The notes below the pieces were generated by a model. That model saw only the letters and a list, made by a program, of their open reading frames with translations. It searched no databases and was not told the origin of the DNA. The position numbers were made by a program, and so were the translations under genes. A stretch of 64,000 bases of DNA. Source: Bacteroidaceae bacterium. GTDB lineage: Bacteria; Bacteroidota; Bacteroidia; Bacteroidales; Bacteroidaceae. Location of the stretch: assembly GCA_016280445.1 (NCBI GenBank), contig JAEEGS010000016.1:1-64000 (forward strand). The letters are read 5' to 3'. Below, in pieces: positions 8,155 to 18,979 of this stretch (positions are counted from its first letter, which is position 1; the number at the start of each line of letters is the position of its first letter).

Positions 8155-9273
8155 TCACCACCCTGGAGGCAGCACTACATTGTCTAACGTGTGTGCTTGT
8201 TCGAATAGTGGAGCAATCTCTTCGTCGGTGAATCCTGCGATGCCGCAACCGATGCGTGTGACAAGGAAGGTCAGTTCGGGATGCTCCTTCGCAAAGGCGA
8301 TGAACTCATCCACATAGGGACGGATGGTTTCCACCCCACCCTGCATGGTCGGGATGCCATAACTCTGCCCCTGCAGACCTACGCCTTGTCCCATCACGGC
8401 ACCAAATTTCTTGTAGGCAATCCATGCCGCACCACCACCATGCAATCCGCGCAAATTGCTGCCAAAGACAAAAATCTCGTTCGGTTCGAGCGAATCGATG
8501 AATGTTGGAGTTGTACGTTTCTGTTCCATATAATTATAGTCAAGTGAATAGTCGGGCATGGATGCTTCGTTGCACATACAGGCATCGTCGGACAGAGAGT
8601 GGAACGGCACCGTGAAGGAGGCTCCAGCCATCTGGTCTTTTGCTGATTTCTCGTAAGGCATGGTGAACTCGTCCAGCACTTCGGGCATATCGAAGTCCAT
8701 GTCGAAGTTCTTTCGGAAGTAAGGAATCAGCACCTGTTTCTTCAGATGGTTAAATCGCTGAGAGATGGCGGAGGGTGTCACACCCATTTTCTCCGCCACC
8801 TCTTTGGCTTTGAATCCTTGCACCAGCATCAGTTCCAGCACCATGCGGTCGCTGCGGTCTGCTATGTGATGGTTGCACAATTCCTCGATGATTTTGTTGA
8901 ACTGCAGACGTAAATCCTCGCTGGCATCGAAGGTACGCAAATAGTCTTCGTAACTCAAGTTGCCATATTCACGCTGATACCATTTCAAGGCATCGAGCAC
9001 GACGAAACGGAATCCTCCGACAATCCATGTGCGAAGACTCACTTCTGGCGAGCGGTCTTCGAGCGGACGCCAATCATGCTCCATCAGATAGAGTGCATAC
9101 TGATGTGCCAACGACATGAAGTCGAGGTTCTCCTTCTGGCTCAACCCGTAATGCTGGTCGTAAAGGTGATAGGCTGCATGACAATATTCGTAAAAATAGT
9201 CACGAAAAACGCGGCTGTTCCCGTTGCGCAATCCGTCAAGAATTTGCTGGTCAGATAGAGGTGAACGTCTCAT
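8155..9273 (-). CDS. fusion of ECF-like sigma factor and macrodomain-like domain
   Basis: A 372-residue protein starting at the ATG at 9273; the frame is open further upstream but lacks domain content there. Residues about 4-110 resemble sigma region 2. Residues about 135-185 (VLELMLVQGFKAKEVAEKMG and VTPSAISQRFNHLKK) form a sigma region 4 helix-turn-helix. After an acidic linker, residues about 256-372 resemble the A1S_2505-type phage-associated family: IFVFGSNLRGLHGGGAAWIA, GQSYGIPT, and RIGCGIAGFTDEEIAPLF. The GSNL..HGGGAA and GCGIAG patterns resemble the ADP-ribose-binding loops of macrodomains. No frameshift separates the halves. It may be a transcription factor that senses an ADP-ribose-type or nucleotide signal, which is inference. 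It diverges from a VWA gene. Confidence 0.72.
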   Translation of the reverse strand: MRRSPLSDQQILDGLRNGNSRVFRDYFYEYCHAAYHLYDQHYGLSQKENLDFMSLAHQYALYLMEHDWRPLEDRSPEVSLRTWIVGGFRFVVLDALKWYQREYGNLSYEDYLRTFDASEDLRLQFNKIIEELCNHHIADRSDRMVLELMLVQGFKAKEVAEKMGVTPSAISQRFNHLKKQVLIPYFRKNFDMDFDMPEVLDEFTMPYEKSAKDQMAGASFTVPFHSLSDDACMCNEASMPDYSLDYNYMEQKRTTPTFIDSLEPNEIFVFGSNLRGLHGGGAAWIAYKKFGAVMGQGVGLQGQSYGIPTMQGGVETIRPYVDEFIAFAKEHPELTFLVTRIGCGIAGFTDEEIAPLFEQAHTLDNVVLPPGW

Positions 9274-9290
9274 CGTGGATATTTTTTTTG

Positions 9291-9298
9291 CGAAGATA
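9291..9298 (-). promoter_or_regulatory. possible -7 box for the sigma/macrodomain gene
   Basis: Reads TATCTTCG on the minus strand, one base from the TAnnTTTG consensus, about 18 bases before the ATG. Confidence 0.4.
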
Positions 9299-9441
9299 GT
9301 AAAAAAATGGACGAGTGTGCTTAACTTTTTCTGAAAATCTTCTTTTAAGGGATAAAAGTCAACAGAATCGTGACCTTTCGAGCACGGATTCACACAACTT
9401 TTATAATTCACATTTATTCACTCCTAAAAAATAAAAAGAAG

Positions 9442-13075: not shown

Positions 13076-13097
13076 TCATCCTTGCTCATACAACATA

Positions 13098-13133
13098 CGC
13101 ACCCGCCTCCAAGCGGGTGCGTTTTGTTTTATT
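13098..13133 (+). terminator. Rho-independent terminator
   Basis: CGCACCCGC pairs perfectly with GCGGGTGCG around a six-base loop, then TTTTGTTTTATT. Confidence 0.9.
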
Positions 13134-13175: not shown

Positions 13176-13208
13176 TTTGGTGGTTTTAAAAATAAAGTTG
13201 TATCTTTG
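13176..13208 (+). promoter_or_regulatory. promoter of the signalling operon
   Basis: -7 box TATCTTTG at 13201-13208 and -33 TTTG at 13176-13179, with a 21-base spacer. Start of translation follows 21 bases later. Confidence 0.7.
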
Positions 13209-13229
13209 CAAACAGAAAGAAAAACTAAT

Positions 13230-14189
13230 ATGGCACGAAAGAAACAGACCTTATACCTATTAATCATTGCCATGATGGCGATGGCTCAGACTGTGACTGC
13301 ACAGGAAGAGACCATCGTGTTTACACCACAATGGACGGCACAGGCCCAATTCGCCGGCTATTACGTAGCCGAGGCAAAGGGTTTCTATCGCGAGGCTGGA
13401 GTGAAGGTGCGCATAGAACATCCATCAGCCACGCAGCCCGCCATGGACCGCTTGCGCAAGAACGAATGTCAGGCCACAACACTGCAACTTTGTCAAGCGT
13501 TGGAAATCGTGGATGGAGGCATCCCTCTGGTGAACATCCTTCAGACATCGATGAACAATGCGATGGTCATCGTTTCAGCCCGCGACAAAGATCCGCTGAC
13601 ACAGAAAGGTGCCCGTGTCGGCATCTGGAGCGTCGGTTTCGGTCAATTGGCCATCTGCATGAGCATCAAGGACCATCTGAACTACAAGTGGGTGCACTTC
13701 GCTCAGAACGTCAATCTTTTCGTGGCTGGAGCCCTCGATGCCACGCTGGCCATGAGCTACAACGAGTACTACCAGTTGGTGCAAGCAGGTATCAAGATGA
13801 CCGACAAGAACGTGTATCGTTTCTGCGACCACGGCTACAACGTGCAGGAGGACGGCGTCTATATGAACCGCGACTACTACGAGAAGCACAAGGAACAGGC
13901 ACATCGTTTCGCCCAAGCTAGCAAGAAAGGCTGGGAATGGGCAGCCCAACATCCCGACGAGACACTGGACATCGTGATGCGGTATGTCGATAAGAACCAC
14001 ATCGCCACCAACCGCGTGATGCAGCGGCTGATGCTCCAAGAGGTGCTGCGCCTGCAAGTGGACCGCGAGTCGAAGAAGCGCGAGTTCCGGTTGCGCCCCG
14101 ACATGGTGCGACAAGCCAACCAACTGATGGTGGAGAACCAGATGCTGAGCCATGAAGTGACATACGATCAACTTATCCCACAGAAGTAA
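13230..14189 (+). CDS. orphan NMT1/THI5-like periplasmic substrate-binding protein
   Basis: A 319-residue exported protein. After a signal peptide ending TVTAQ it has the NMT1/THI5-like solute-binding layout: FTPQWTAQAQFAGYYVAEAKG, the NECQATTLQLCQALEIVDGG block, and GARVGIWSVGFGQL. Relatives bind pyrimidine or sulfonate-type ligands for ABC importers. No ABC permease or ATPase gene is nearby. Instead the gene is 12 bases upstream of a membrane sensor with an extracytoplasmic domain. The likely role is to present a ligand to that sensor; this is inference from gene order. The ATG at 13230 is chosen because it starts the signal peptide. Confidence 0.8.
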   Translation: MARKKQTLYLLIIAMMAMAQTVTAQEETIVFTPQWTAQAQFAGYYVAEAKGFYREAGVKVRIEHPSATQPAMDRLRKNECQATTLQLCQALEIVDGGIPLVNILQTSMNNAMVIVSARDKDPLTQKGARVGIWSVGFGQLAICMSIKDHLNYKWVHFAQNVNLFVAGALDATLAMSYNEYYQLVQAGIKMTDKNVYRFCDHGYNVQEDGVYMNRDYYEKHKEQAHRFAQASKKGWEWAAQHPDETLDIVMRYVDKNHIATNRVMQRLMLQEVLRLQVDRESKKREFRLRPDMVRQANQLMVENQMLSHEVTYDQLIPQK

Positions 14190-14201
14190 GGAGGCACGAG
14201 C

Positions 14202-16571
14202 ATGAAACAAATCATCGCATATATCCGTCGCAAACTATCCGTCAGAGTCAGTCTGTGGGTAGTGTTCTTTGCTGCCATCATCTTCGTTGTCGCCCTCGGA
14301 TTCCTATTCTATCAGGCCCGTGAGGCCGTGCGGCAGGAGGCTGTCAATCGTGCCACGCAAATCTTGGATAAGACCTCACTGCGTGTGGAGGGCATATTGA
14401 ACCGTGTGGAGGTGGCCTCGGACATGACCAAATGGCTGGTACTGCGCCATCCCGACCAAGCCGACTCGATGTTCGTCTACAGCCGGGGCTTGCTGCAGAA
14501 TAATCCCGACTTCTACAACTGCTCCATCGCTTTCGAGCCTTACTACTTCAAAAACAAGGGACGCTATTTCTCTGCCTACACCAGACATATCGGTGACTCT
14601 ATTCGCACCACACAAGGCGGCAGCGATAACTACCAGTATTTCTTTGCGGACTGGTATCTCATGCCCCAACTGCTGGATAAGCCGTGCTGGACGGAACCGT
14701 ATATGGACCTCGATGTCGCCACGAACACCAGCGAGATGGTGACCAGTTACTGTCAGACCCTCATGGACAAGCAGGACCAGGTGATAGGCGTCATCAACAT
14801 CAGCCTCTCACTGAACTGGCTATCGCAGACCATCTCAGCCGTTAAGCCCTATCCCAATTCTTACAGCATCATGATCGGCCGTGGCGGCACCTACTTCGTA
14901 CATCCCGACACGACGAAAATCACCCGCCAGACCATTTTCACCCAGACGCTGGAGCAGCCCGACACAGCCATGAGCGCCCTCGGCCATGCCATGACGAATG
15001 GTGAGGAAGGGGTGAAGCAGATGAATATCAATGGCGAGGACAGTTACGTCTTCTACAAGCCCCTCGGCCAGACGGGATGCTCGATGGCCATCGTCTGCCC
15101 CGAGAGCGACATCTTCAGTGGTTTCGACCGTCTGCGCCACACGATTATGGCCATCGTCACCGTTGGTCTGTTGCTGATGCTCTACTTCTTCGTCCGCATC
15201 ATTACCAGCGAACTGAAGCCCCTGCGACGACTGGCCCACGAGGCCGAAGCCATCGCATCAGGACAGTTTGACACCGTACTGCCTGACTTCCAGCGTACCG
15301 ACGAGATTGGCCAGTTGAGCCACTCGTTCGGGAACATGCAGCAGTCGCTGGTGAAACACATCGAAGAGTTAAAGAACACCACTGCTCAGAAGGCCTCGAT
15401 AGAGAGTGACCTCCGCATTGCCAGCGACATACAGATGGGCATGCTGCCCGAAAAGTTTCCGACCAAGGCCGACCGTGACGACGTGCAACTCTATGCCTCG
15501 CTGACCCCAGCCAAGGAGGTGGGCGGCGACCTGTTTGACTTCTATTTCCGCGACGAGAAACTCTTCTTCTGCATCGGCGACGTGTCGGGCAAGGGCGTGC
15601 CAGCCTCCCTCTTCATGGCCGTCACACGCTCTACCTTCCGAACCGTTTCGACCCACGAGTCGATGCCCGACCGCATCGTGACCATCATGAACAAGACGAT
15701 TGCCGACATGAATAAAAACCACATGTTCGTCACCCTCTTTGTCGGTGTGCTCGACCTGCCCACTGGACGTCTGCACTACTGCAATGCCGGCCATGATGCC
15801 CCGTTGCTCGTTGGTGCCGGCGTAGGCGAACTTCCATGCGACTCGAATATCCCCGTCGGCTTTATGCCCACATGGAAGTACACCCAGCAAGAGGCGCTTA
15901 TCTTCACTGGCACCACCATCTTCCTTTTCACCGATGGATTGACCGAGGCTATGAATGCCGAATATGCGCAGTTCCAGATGGAGCGCATAAACGACGTGGC
16001 AAATCGCGCACTGGCCAAACAGCAACAGGAGCCCCGTCAACTCATCAGCCAGATGACCGAGGCCGTCCACCAGTTTGTGGGCGATGCCGAACAGAGCGAT
16101 GACCTGACCATGATGGCCATACAGTATATCAAGCAGCAGAGAGACGTACAGATGCGGAAAAGCATCGTGCTGACAAACGACACGCAGGAAGTGCCACGAC
16201 TGAATGTCTTTGTCGAAGAGGTCTGCCAAGCCGTGGGATTCGACCAAGTTGTCACCATGCAGGTAAAAGTGGCCGTAGAGGAGGCAGTGGTCAACGTAAT
16301 GAAATATGCCTATCCATCAGGACAGCGCGGCGACGTGAGCATAGAGGCAGCCTCGAATGATGTGCGACTGAAAATTACCATCATCGACAGCGGTAAGCCT
16401 TTCGACCCCACCGTTCAAGCAGAAGTCGACACAACGCTATCTGCCAACCAGCGCAACATCGGCGGACTGGGCATCCATCTCATGCGTCAAAACATGGACT
16501 CCATCAACTACGAGCGCATGGATGACCTCAATGTGCTGACGTTGAGGAAGAAAATACAACAAAGTAAATAG
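14202..16571 (+). CDS. membrane sensor: Cache-like, HAMP, PP2C phosphatase, anti-sigma kinase
   Basis: A 789-residue multidomain signalling protein. In order: transmembrane helix (about 14-36), an extracytoplasmic Cache-like sensor (about 40-305), a second helix (about 311-333), HAMP (about 334-388), SpoIIE/RsbU-type PP2C phosphatase (about 400-643), and an RsbW-type HATPase domain (about 650-789). Phosphatase motifs are GGDLFDFYF, GDVSGKGVPASLFMAV, GHDAPLL, FTDGLTEAMN and SDDLTMMA. Kinase motifs are VEEAVVNVMKYAY (N box), DSGKPFDP and GGLGIHLM. One protein thus holds both the kinase and the phosphatase that would act on the STAS protein encoded next. No sigma-B-type gene is adjacent. Confidence 0.9.
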   Translation: MKQIIAYIRRKLSVRVSLWVVFFAAIIFVVALGFLFYQAREAVRQEAVNRATQILDKTSLRVEGILNRVEVASDMTKWLVLRHPDQADSMFVYSRGLLQNNPDFYNCSIAFEPYYFKNKGRYFSAYTRHIGDSIRTTQGGSDNYQYFFADWYLMPQLLDKPCWTEPYMDLDVATNTSEMVTSYCQTLMDKQDQVIGVINISLSLNWLSQTISAVKPYPNSYSIMIGRGGTYFVHPDTTKITRQTIFTQTLEQPDTAMSALGHAMTNGEEGVKQMNINGEDSYVFYKPLGQTGCSMAIVCPESDIFSGFDRLRHTIMAIVTVGLLLMLYFFVRIITSELKPLRRLAHEAEAIASGQFDTVLPDFQRTDEIGQLSHSFGNMQQSLVKHIEELKNTTAQKASIESDLRIASDIQMGMLPEKFPTKADRDDVQLYASLTPAKEVGGDLFDFYFRDEKLFFCIGDVSGKGVPASLFMAVTRSTFRTVSTHESMPDRIVTIMNKTIADMNKNHMFVTLFVGVLDLPTGRLHYCNAGHDAPLLVGAGVGELPCDSNIPVGFMPTWKYTQQEALIFTGTTIFLFTDGLTEAMNAEYAQFQMERINDVANRALAKQQQEPRQLISQMTEAVHQFVGDAEQSDDLTMMAIQYIKQQRDVQMRKSIVLTNDTQEVPRLNVFVEEVCQAVGFDQVVTMQVKVAVEEAVVNVMKYAYPSGQRGDVSIEAASNDVRLKITIIDSGKPFDPTVQAEVDTTLSANQRNIGGLGIHLMRQNMDSINYERMDDLNVLTLRKKIQQSK

Positions 16572-16596
16572 TAAAACGATTTAAAAAGATAAGATA

Positions 16597-16899
16597 ATGA
16601 ACGTAAAAATTGAAGAAATCAACGGCAACATGGTTGCCATTCTAGAAGGCAGCCTCGACACTGCCGCTGCCCCAGAAGCCGAAAAGGCCATGAGTCCTCT
16701 CCATGACGTGGAAGGCAAGGACATTATCATCGACTGCACCGACCTGGAGTACATCTCGTCGGCTGGTCTGCGCATATTCCTTGGCATTCTGAAGAACGCC
16801 CAGAAACAGGGAAGGCATGTCTATATCAAGAGTATTAACGATAACGTCCGTAGCATTTTCACCATCACGGGCTTCAGTAACATCTTCGAATTCATGTAA
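16597..16899 (+). CDS. STAS-domain anti-sigma-factor antagonist (RsbV/SpoIIAA-like)
   Basis: A 100-residue single STAS domain. The conserved phosphorylation loop is DLEYISSAGLRIFLG, with the expected phospho-serine at Ser54 or Ser55. In this family the unphosphorylated protein binds its kinase or another target; phosphorylation by an RsbW-type kinase blocks this and a PP2C phosphatase restores it. Both those activities are predicted in the gene 25 bases upstream, and an alarmone synthetase begins 12 bases downstream, so it should be the central switch protein of the operon. Confidence 0.9.
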   Translation: MNVKIEEINGNMVAILEGSLDTAAAPEAEKAMSPLHDVEGKDIIIDCTDLEYISSAGLRIFLGILKNAQKQGRHVYIKSINDNVRSIFTITGFSNIFEFM

Positions 16900-16911
16900 A
16901 CCGGCACACAG

Positions 16912-18027
16912 ATGGATAATCAAACCAAATCTACGAGTAAGCGAGAACAGGTAAGACCGAAGGTCAAACTGGATCCTCATGGCGAGATGCTGCTGCAGCA
17001 GTACCACGAACTGTACCCCACGCTGCAAGAGTTGGCCGACGAAGCCTACAACCAGTTGTGCAAGGCACTGCGCGAACAGGGCATCTACGTCACAGCCATC
17101 GAGCACAGGGTGAAAACAGAGAAGTCGCTCATAGGGAAACTGGAACTGAAAGGGGCGAAATACAAAAGCATCGACGACATCACCGACCTCGTAGGCTTGC
17201 GCATCATTACCTTTTACACCGATGAAGTGGACAAAGTGGCGGCCATCGCCAAGCGCCTCTTCGACATAGACTGGAAGGAAAGTGTCGATAAGCGTAAGTT
17301 GCATGAACTGGATGCTTTCGGCTATAACTCGCTGCACTATATCTGCCGTCTCAAGACGGGCGGCCCACGCTTCGAACTGCAGATGCGCACAGCGCTGCAG
17401 CACGTGTGGTCCACCATCGAGCACGACACAGGCTACAAGGGTGACGTGAAGATGCCTCGCGAGTACAAGCGGCAATTCAGCCGTCTGGCGGGAATGATGG
17501 AACTGATTGATGACGAGTTCAGCCGCCTGCGTGTAGTGCTCACAGACTACCGCCGCCAGACACTGGCACTGGTCAAGAACGGACAACTGGATGACGTACC
17601 ACTGTCAGCCGAAACATTCCGGGGATATCTGGAACTGCATCCCTTCGACCGTTTGAATAAACGTATCGCTGCCGTCAACCAAGCTGAAGTTTTTCCTGTA
17701 TCCATGATGTCCTATCTGCCCGTGCTCGAATCCCTTGGATTGGAGACCCTTGGCGACGTACAGCAATTCATCGACGAGAACAGTGATGATGCCTACCAGT
17801 TGGCACTCTCGCAACTGGCCATTACCGACCTCGACATTCTCTCGTCCAACACGGCCTTGCAGTACCTCTGCCTGGTTCATGTGCTGAAACATGACGGCGG
17901 GCGCGATGGGCTTAAATCGCTCTACGACATCATCAATGGCGAAAACGATGCCAACGGCATGCTGGCCGACCTGATCATGGAACAAGCCAAGACACAGCCG
18001 TTTATGCGACAAGCGAACCCTACATAA
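16912..18027 (+). CDS. RelA/SpoT-domain (p)ppGpp synthetase-like protein
   Basis: A 371-residue protein with an N-terminal RelA/SpoT nucleotidyltransferase domain (about 30-210) and a C-terminal region of unknown function. Synthetase motifs look intact: HRVKTEKSLIGKLELKG for ATP binding, DITDLVGLRIITFY, GYNSLHYICRL near 137, FELQMRT near 154, and IEHDTGYKG near 169. There is no HD hydrolase domain and no TGS or ACT domain, so it would make but not degrade (p)ppGpp or a related alarmone. The C-terminal 160 residues might receive regulation. It ends the signalling operon except for a small zinc-ribbon gene and may be its output. Confidence 0.82.
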   Translation: MDNQTKSTSKREQVRPKVKLDPHGEMLLQQYHELYPTLQELADEAYNQLCKALREQGIYVTAIEHRVKTEKSLIGKLELKGAKYKSIDDITDLVGLRIITFYTDEVDKVAAIAKRLFDIDWKESVDKRKLHELDAFGYNSLHYICRLKTGGPRFELQMRTALQHVWSTIEHDTGYKGDVKMPREYKRQFSRLAGMMELIDDEFSRLRVVLTDYRRQTLALVKNGQLDDVPLSAETFRGYLELHPFDRLNKRIAAVNQAEVFPVSMMSYLPVLESLGLETLGDVQQFIDENSDDAYQLALSQLAITDLDILSSNTALQYLCLVHVLKHDGGRDGLKSLYDIINGENDANGMLADLIMEQAKTQPFMRQANPT

Positions 18028-18055
18028 GTCAAGAAAACAAAAAAGAAAATCTGAT

Positions 18056-18247
18056 ATGGCAAGAAAAGAACTATATTGTCCCAAATGTGGCAGCACAGAT
18101 TGCACCAGCCACAAAAAGGGTTACAACCGAGCCTTAGGATGCCTTGGCTTCCTCTTCCTAAACGTCTTTGGCTTGTTGTTGGGCTGCATCGGTAAAAACA
18201 AACTCATCTGCCAATGCAACGAATGCGGAAAGAAGTGGACCATGTGA
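18056..18247 (+). CDS. small zinc-ribbon protein
   Basis: A 63-residue protein with C-P-K-C near the N-terminus and C-x-C-x2-C near the C-terminus (CQCNECGKKW), a likely zinc ribbon, split by a hydrophobic segment (ALGCLGFLFLNVFGLLLGCIG) that could be a membrane hairpin. It lies 28 bases after the alarmone synthetase gene and before a strong terminator, so it is probably the last gene of that operon. Function unknown. Confidence 0.65.
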   Translation: MARKELYCPKCGSTDCTSHKKGYNRALGCLGFLFLNVFGLLLGCIGKNKLICQCNECGKKWTM

Positions 18248-18319: not shown

Positions 18320-18369
18320 CATATAGTAATGGGATGATGTCAGTTGGGCATCATCCCATTTATTTTTTC
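18320..18369 (+). terminator. terminator and left copy of a 41-base direct repeat
   Basis: AATGGGATGATG (18328-18339) pairs with CATCATCCCATT (18349-18360), then TATTTTTTC. The 41 bases at 18320-18360 recur at 19028-19068 with two differences. Confidence 0.85.
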
Positions 18370-18446: not shown

Positions 18447-18707
18447 ATGGTAGCAACAACATTAACACCTCCATCCACCCAGATGATTATCACGCTGGAG
18501 GACAATGCAGTGGTGGCCGACATCAAGAAAGCATTGAAGTTAATACGTGGCATCGCATCGGTGCGCACTGCCACTATCAACGACGAAAGGAGCATTACAC
18601 CCGCCCTGCGCCGTTCAATGAAGAAAGCCCGCGAGGAATATGCCAAGGGTGAGACTATCTCATGCCGTACGCCTGAGGAGATGCAGAAATATTTCGACAG
18701 TCTATGA
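18447..18707 (+). CDS. probable antitoxin of a YoeB-type module
   Basis: An 86-residue protein, called mainly from context: it precedes and overlaps by four bases (ATGA) a clear Txe/YoeB-type toxin gene. The N-terminal half (MIITLEDNAVVADIKKALKL) could form the DNA-binding and dimer part. The C-terminal half, ALRRSMKKAREEYAKGETIS and EEMQKYFDSL, is a charged helix of the type that wraps the toxin. Antitoxins of this group neutralise the toxin and repress their own promoter. Its precise family is not certain. Confidence 0.7.
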   Translation: MVATTLTPPSTQMIITLEDNAVVADIKKALKLIRGIASVRTATINDERSITPALRRSMKKAREEYAKGETISCRTPEEMQKYFDSL

Positions 18708-18979
18708 TGTATACTATTGAGTATTCTAAGGAGGCAGACAAGACCTTGAGGAAGTGGAAGAAGTCCAATCCACGCCTTTTCAAGAAGGCCACGAAGATTC
18801 TGCTAGACATTATGGAGCATCCACGTACAGGAATTGGTCATCCAGAGCCTCTCATTGGAGGCCGCGACATAACGTATTCGCGTCACATCACGGCTGACGA
18901 TCGTATCATCTACGATATTTACGATGAACGTGTTACTGTACTCGTCATTCAAGCAGAGGAGCACTACAACGACAAATAA
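18704..18979 (+). CDS. YoeB/Txe-family mRNA interferase toxin
   Basis: A 91-residue RelE-superfamily endoribonuclease that cuts mRNA on the ribosome. Family signs are IEYSKEADKTLRKWKKSNP, the HPRTGIGHPEPLIGG block, YSRHITADDRIIYDIYD, and the C-terminal EEHYND. The residues expected at the active site (Glu in HPEPL, Arg in YSRHI, His in EEHY) are present, so the toxin should be active. The start overlaps the antitoxin stop in ATGATG, giving translational coupling. The pair lies between two copies of a 41-base hairpin repeat. Confidence 0.88.
   Translation: MMYTIEYSKEADKTLRKWKKSNPRLFKKATKILLDIMEHPRTGIGHPEPLIGGRDITYSRHITADDRIIYDIYDERVTVLVIQAEEHYNDK

Follow-up and report, generated by a model that had tools for sequence, protein, structure and literature searches.

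A predicted partner-switch operon with a small alarmone synthetase as its probable output in a Bacteroidaceae bacterium

The first 64,000 nucleotides of contig JAEEGS010000016.1 from a Bacteroidaceae bacterium (this whole stretch is called the window; the genome is 3.07 Mb in 84 contigs and 97.2% complete) contain a compact set of signalling genes between positions 13176 and 18247. The set begins with a THI5/NMT1-like periplasmic binding protein (13230-14189; Pfam NMT1, 2.5e-27). It is followed by a 789-residue sensor with Cache, HAMP, PP2C phosphatase, and RsbW-type kinase domains (14202-16571), a 100-residue STAS switch protein (16597-16899; Pfam STAS, 2.1e-18), and a 371-residue small alarmone synthetase (SAS) with a helical C-terminal domain (16912-18027; RelA_SpoT, 7.8e-19). 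An initial annotation had described these four genes as one tight operon. All four are indeed intact frames on a single strand, separated by 12, 25, and 12 nt, and each has its Pfam domains matched. A fifth gene (18056-18247) lies within the same span, starting 28 nt past the synthetase. It is an open frame for a 63-residue protein with two CxxC pairs and a hydrophobic stretch, which has no match in the Pfam scan and looks zinc-ribbon-like by eye. All five genes are on the plus strand, and together with a promoter match they form one predicted operon.

The promoter match is a Bacteroidetes-type pattern, TTTG-N21-TAtcTTTG (13176-13208, plus strand), based on what is presumably the consensus for this group; the pattern occurs four times in the 64 kb window, where 0.71 matches are expected by chance. 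The frame of the THI5-like gene is open from 13206, with an ATG at 13230 (genes were called by a simple longest-frame method). Terminator-like hairpins are found on both sides of the operon. One, with a 14-pair stem and then a T-rich tail, follows it on the plus strand (18328-18360), and the other, with a stem of 10-11 pairs and scored on both strands, lies between the upstream gene and the operon (13097-13122). Such hairpins number 12 in the region against 6.4 expected. Past the operon, an 86-residue protein and a YoeB-like toxin (5.3e-14) are encoded at 18447-18979 and are likely a type II toxin-antitoxin pair.

The binding protein has a hydrophobic, signal-peptide-like N-terminus (judged by eye). 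The sensor matches SpoIIE/PP2C (3.1e-45), HATPase_c_2 (3.2e-24), MCP-like_PDC_1 (2.8e-17), and HAMP (1.3e-13) in Pfam. Seven sensors, among them one unlinked paralogue from contig C11 of the window genome, were aligned. In all seven, the metal-site motifs of the PP2C/SpoIIE phosphatase (GGD, GDVSGKG, DGLxEA, and SDDLT) and the N, G1, and G2 boxes of the RsbW/SpoIIAB-type HATPase kinase (EEAVxNV, DxGxxFDP, and GGLGIHL) are unchanged; the HAMP part is missing from four. The best NCBIfam match of the sensor is SiaA (E 4.4e-26), at 91.6 bits far under the model cut-off of 700. The second Cache-PP2C-kinase sensor of the window genome, on contig C11, has a STAS gene but no synthetase beside it (L210:5656-8413) and is a possible cross-talk partner.

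The initial annotation had called the binding protein an orphan. The window genome has two NMT1 matches, each adjoining Cache-domain sensor genes, and no ATP-binding cassette (ABC) transporter gene was recognised next to either of them. Therefore both proteins look sensory rather than involved in transport, and the description as an orphan is borne out. The second one, on contig C4, is followed by two Cache-HAMP genes that are histidine-kinase-like by eye (L263:3793-8181). The pairing of binding protein and sensor is common in related genomes: a sensor is matched within 8 kb of the synthetase at 47 loci, and at 37 of these a THI5-like gene is present in the same interval.

The STAS protein scores 73 bits against TIGR00377 (cut-off 53.45). 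S54 and S55 in its SSxGLR motif are unchanged in 12 of 12 STAS proteins, and by family knowledge this is presumably the phosphorylation site, so that the protein has the putatively phosphorylatable serine of a partner-switch antagonist. In a STAS tree, which has few columns and is poorly resolved, the STAS genes linked to a synthetase cluster together (13 changes against 32.3 in shuffles) without forming one clade. Some STAS genes elsewhere therefore belong to other modules.

The RelA_SpoT match of the synthetase covers residues 65-178 of 371, and no HD hydrolase domain is matched in the Pfam scan. Nineteen of the 22 synthetase positions checked, including R66, K68, S72, D92, Y138, H142, and E155, are unchanged in all 101 synthetases compared, and D89, K129, and R159 vary in 4, 4, and 2 rows, respectively; these positions are presumed to belong to the ATP and GDP/GTP sites. 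In a profile search, solved GTP pyrophosphokinases align to this region. Because it has a RelA_SpoT domain without a hydrolase domain, these conserved positions, and the match to solved synthetases, the protein is classified from its sequence as a synthetase-only RelA/SpoT homologue (RSH). It is the third RSH of the genome, which has two further genes with frames of 765 and 751 residues.

An AlphaFold2 model of the synthetase has a mean predicted local distance difference test (pLDDT) of 85.7 and a predicted template modelling score (pTM) of 0.65. It matches Bacillus subtilis SAS1 with bound pppGpp (5ded; E 3.1e-9 over 197 columns), and the top 50 fold matches listed are all synthetases. The model has a 41-residue helix at 183-223, and the C-terminal part, about residues 225-368, is predicted to be mostly helical. 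This C-terminal domain has no credible sequence match among solved structures; the best, a TAL effector repeat at E 0.003, is taken as chance. The domain is included in the match of residues 27-356 to a phage protein family, phrog_9640 (3e-54). Against the NCBIfam model GTPPhKinYjbM the synthetase scores 54 bits, where the cut-off is 320. In the parts of a 2011 RSH survey that deal with the class Bacteroidia, Rel and RshB are the typical set and, among the SAS columns, only divRel, an unplaced synthetase-only class, is marked (PMC3153485). The window enzyme may or may not be a member of divRel.

Relatives of the synthetase are found in 19 of 151 genomes of a family sample and 8 of 247 of an order sample, with the window genome in each count; the samples include incomplete genomes. 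Public records gave a further 80 loci, the best of 480 confirmed relatives, and therefore lean to close relatives. The set compared here has 101 loci (78 public, 22 from other genomes, and the window). It leaves out L070 and L071 as copies of L031 and L033, the distant L053 and L054, and L055, where the synthetase is cut by the contig end; at L055 a STAS gene and a sensor adjoin, so that its inclusion would favour a link between switch and synthetase. L086 and L087 are nearly identical and both counted.

At 60 of the 101 loci a STAS gene is linked to the synthetase, meaning that it lies no more than 8 kb away on the same strand. It is directly upstream (at most 60 nt, overlaps included) at 54 of them; some of the overlaps, which reach -166 nt, are start-codon artefacts. 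Where at least 5 kb is available on both sides, STAS is linked at 42 of 74 loci, and so is a small alarmone hydrolase, at 42 of 74. A kinase or PP2C-sensor match joins STAS at 50 of the 60 STAS-linked loci; the other 10 have STAS and the synthetase with no sensor or kinase match within 8 kb. Linked STAS genes occur in four families of the order (f1, f2, f42, and f81) and on either side of the deepest (midpoint) fork of the synthetase tree, across which the synthetases are only about 50% identical. At least 16 changes are needed on this tree, which is compatible both with an old association that has often been lost and with one that has been gained repeatedly. Conservation of the linkage had been set beforehand as a refutation test, and the linkage is conserved, although not universal.

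Gene order varies around the STAS-synthetase pair. The window has THI5-sensor-STAS-SAS, while L039 has APH-like kinase-THI5-sensor-K/H antiporter-STAS-SAS-hydrolase, L041 has SAS-sensor-antiporter-STAS-hydrolase-APH, and L050 has kinase-phosphatase-STAS-SAS followed by a fusion of hydrolase and APH. The small alarmone hydrolase (HD_4, matching the SpoT N-terminal region) is linked at 56 of the 101 loci and is fused to the synthetase in L034. Therefore the locus appears to concern alarmone turnover. The window locus and its genome are without this linked hydrolase. Fusion of the hydrolase to an APH-like kinase domain is seen at L046, L047, L050, and L051, and related loci repeatedly carry APH-like and Y_phosphatase3 domains as separate genes. 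The titles of many of the nearest public relatives (Prevotellaceae and Bacteroidaceae assemblies) name ruminant gut samples.

STAS and the synthetase also co-occur at the level of whole genomes. In the family sample, a STAS match at E 1e-8 or better is found in 19 of 19 synthetase-positive genomes against 33 of 132 synthetase-negative ones (Fisher p 1.2e-10, with kinship ignored). Among 21 further genomes with a STAS-free synthetase locus, 20 carry STAS elsewhere (one only inside a 450-residue frame).

A sigma factor, the classical output of a partner switch, was considered as the output of the operon and rejected. No sigma gene lies inside it, as the initial annotation had noted, and a match to an extracytoplasmic function (ECF) sigma model is present on the same strand within 6 kb at only 4 of the 101 loci. 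The 12 sigma-70 region-2 matches of the window genome are on other contigs, mostly in ECF-sized frames. Since the ECF model, built on 7 of these 12 matches, was scanned on one strand only, a divergent or opposite-strand factor could be missed.

Taken together, these observations make it probable that the operon is a ligand-responsive partner switch with a small alarmone synthetase as its output. The initial annotation had proposed that the STAS protein controls (p)ppGpp synthesis in response to an external ligand. This interpretation is plausible and strengthened by the survey. It is supported in part, by the conserved linkage and by an operon free of sigma genes. The switch would work in four steps. 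First, the periplasmic THI5-like protein would bind a small molecule and hand it to the Cache domain of the sensor, in keeping with the conserved gene pairing. Second, the signal would pass through HAMP and shift the balance of two opposed domains of the same protein, PP2C phosphatase and RsbW-type kinase, both of which have intact motifs. Third, this balance would set the phosphorylation of STAS at its conserved serine, as family knowledge suggests. Finally, by analogy with SiaC and SiaD, unphosphorylated STAS freed from the kinase domain would bind the synthetase and may activate (p)ppGpp synthesis; the docking site could be guessed to be the long helix 183-223 or the helical C-terminal domain. 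In many relatives the linked small hydrolase would reset the signal. The window genome lacks it, so the task would fall to its long RSH enzymes. The proposal in this specific form, i.e., an extracellular molecule that acts through a dedicated periplasmic binding protein so that a phospho-controlled STAS has a dedicated synthetase as its direct target, with a linked hydrolase as the counterweight in many relatives, is more tentative and falls somewhat short of probable.

Several observations weigh against a synthetase controlled by the switch, and they are given here together with the alternatives. The best surviving alternative, itself unlikely, is that STAS acts on another target (a transporter, an unlinked pair of anti-sigma and ECF factors, or another enzyme) and that the synthetase is merely co-expressed. 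Same-family switch modules adjoin CitMHS/TrkA_C transporters, porins, GlgX, and an ECF sigma gene, and in synthetase-free genomes switch modules neighbour transporters and porins. The targets of such STAS proteins therefore vary, and no single one is fixed. In a same-strand scan reaching 6 kb, a CitMHS/TrkA_C transporter is also present at 14 of the 60 STAS-linked loci, a porin at one, and an ECF sigma gene at one. The other 44, however, have none of these three outputs, nor does the window operon, although two of the 44 (L039 and L041) have a K+/H+ antiporter instead. The structure model adds some weight to the same alternative. STAS fused to the synthetase gives a pTM of 0.51 against 0.65 for the synthetase alone, from an alignment with 20 paired rows of 42 and with a flexible link that itself lowers pTM, and therefore no confident contact between the two is claimed. 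A search for an interface in the synthetase, comparing 60 STAS-linked with 32 STAS-free loci (flanks of at least 5 kb), found no coherent patch, and mean column entropy is similar in all four regions.

A weak candidate for a sigma-like gene is also present in the window. A 418-residue protein is encoded on the minus strand at 8155-9411, 3.8 kb upstream of the operon, and has a sub-threshold stretch resembling sigma region 4 (22.2 bits against a Pfam cut-off of 25.7, and 20.6 against 21.1 with the ECF model). About 200 further residues have no Pfam match. It is possibly an unusual sigma-like gene, of the opposite-strand sort that the ECF scan could miss, and it adds a caution to the absence of sigma factors from the operon. 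What argues against another target is the arrangement of the genes themselves: it is STAS that abuts the synthetase where the two are directly adjacent, and this pair persists while the order of the other genes varies. Control of the synthetase by the partner switch is the preferred reading.

Other switch modules lie elsewhere in these genomes. On contig C55 of the window genome, STAS, a GlgX-like debranching enzyme (by eye), a kinase, and a PP2C sensor form one run (L211:5907-10659), a partner switch beside glycogen metabolism. The synthetase-positive genome G843 has a kinase, STAS, a 257-residue gene, and an ECF sigma gene in one run (L271:6452-8535). In genome G012, a CitMHS/TrkA_C transporter, STAS, and a kinase are accompanied by a different RelA_SpoT protein of 294 residues, in which the GYxSLH loop was not seen by eye (L208:6014-9554). 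A switch may here have recruited an alarmone-type enzyme for a second time. As an independent recruitment by another synthetase it was set aside: the closer relatives of the 294-residue protein (L234:6805-9854 and L235:6946-9836) directly follow NA-iREase2 proteins with weak NACHT matches, have a defence-type look, and are without a STAS match, so that L208 is a single case.

A second alternative, decidedly less probable than the first, is that the synthetase, with or without the hydrolase, is a self-contained toxin-like or anti-phage module (of the CapRel or toxSAS type), and that the switch is a chance neighbour or a late regulator. As many as 41 of the 101 loci have no linked STAS; 16 of these have the hydrolase without STAS or sensor, and at 22, some of which are on short contigs, both switch and hydrolase are absent within 8 kb. 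L033 has an intact synthetase although its locus lacks the kinase domain and STAS and has a split sensor frame. The synthetase is equally conserved at STAS-free and STAS-linked loci and therefore shows no obvious dependence on the switch. The synthetase is matched at E 1e-20 or better in 12 of 395 genomes of a phylum sample, including the window genome, and the stretches from the other 11, which are outside the order, have no STAS, kinase, or PP2C-sensor match within about 6.5 kb (some are cut by contig ends); L053 and L054, weak matches of the order sample, are likewise without them. Distant homologues are found in 5 phage and 12 plasmid records, the phage family phrog_9640 matches most of the protein, and residues 45-168 match the PADLOC candidate family PDC-S33 (1.9e-13). 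CapRel (7ztb) turns up in both the structural and the profile comparison, but weakly and for the synthetase half only (TM about 0.37). The closest matches are the SAS1 and SAS2 enzymes of Firmicutes, no phage record reaches 80% query coverage, and the presence of STAS in every synthetase-positive genome of the family sample also argues against a self-contained module.

Least probable is that the switch controls the enzyme and the product is (p)ppApp or pyrophosphorylated tRNA rather than (p)ppGpp: the enzyme class includes members of both kinds (CapRel 7ztb is named a tRNA pyrophosphokinase), product identity is beyond the reach of sequence, and the residues immediately ahead of the conserved Y and H depart from solved enzymes, but Y138, H142, D92, E155, R66, and K68 never vary and line up with solved GTP pyrophosphokinases, and the hydrolase linked at over half of the loci matches the SpoT N-terminal region.

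SAS control is described mostly as transcriptional or allosteric. No partner-switch or STAS control of an alarmone synthetase was found in the listed open-access titles and beginnings of abstracts, a scope that leaves out subscription papers and preprints and in which other wording is possible. If the more tentative, specific form of the proposal is true, the alarmone would serve here as a ligand-driven second messenger independent of amino-acid starvation, and partner switching would reach beyond sigma factors and cyclic di-GMP (c-di-GMP) to alarmones. Such phosphorylation-gated coupling of ligand and alarmone would give the stringent response a new input and partner switching a new output. 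The bacteria concerned are known in public records mostly from samples of the rumen and other parts of the ruminant gut. The set, including the hydrolase, also exists in the culture-collection strain Xylanibacter brevis ATCC 19188 (L087). Because of this, and because STAS and the synthetase are small and apparently soluble, the proposal is directly testable.

As judged from its genes, the operon agrees with partner switches, and its enzyme with small alarmone synthetases, in the features tested; it has neither the classical sigma output nor the cyclase output of SiaABCD. Like RsbU/RsbV/RsbW and SpoIIE/SpoIIAA/SpoIIAB, it has a PP2C phosphatase, a HATPase_c_2 kinase, and a STAS antagonist. Unlike these sigma-B and sigma-F systems, it has no cognate alternative sigma gene, and its kinase and phosphatase are fused in a Cache-HAMP sensor. 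Closer in logic is SiaABCD of Pseudomonas aeruginosa, which also has a membrane PP2C sensor, a kinase, a STAS-like switch protein, and a nucleotide second-messenger synthase. There, SiaC in its unphosphorylated form activates the cyclase SiaD by binding to its stalk helices; in comparable systems HsbD is controlled by the STAS protein HsbA, and BgrR by the STAS protein BgrV (PMC8457831, PMC7647112). SiaC, however, is a DUF1987 protein and not a canonical STAS, SiaB is a separate kinase, and the output is a diguanylate cyclase producing c-di-GMP, whereas the window operon has STAS and a RelA_SpoT output in place of DUF1987 and a cyclase. In HsbR-HsbA-HsbD and BgrU/W/V-BgrR, as described in parts of the same sources, the phosphorylation state of STAS likewise sets the activity of a nucleotide-messenger synthase; their output is c-di-GMP, not an alarmone, and their sensors are different (PMC8457831, PMC7647112). 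On the enzyme side, CapRel (7ztb) is of similar length and its synthetase domain matches weakly. Only profile positions 17-220 match (E 2.8e-4), the C-terminal half is unmatched, and no phage context is seen at the window locus. SAS1 (5ded) and SAS2 (6ex0, 6fgk) have the synthetase fold and active-site residues in common with the window enzyme, which differs from them by about 150 extra residues, forming the helical C-terminal domain, and by its linkage to a switch.

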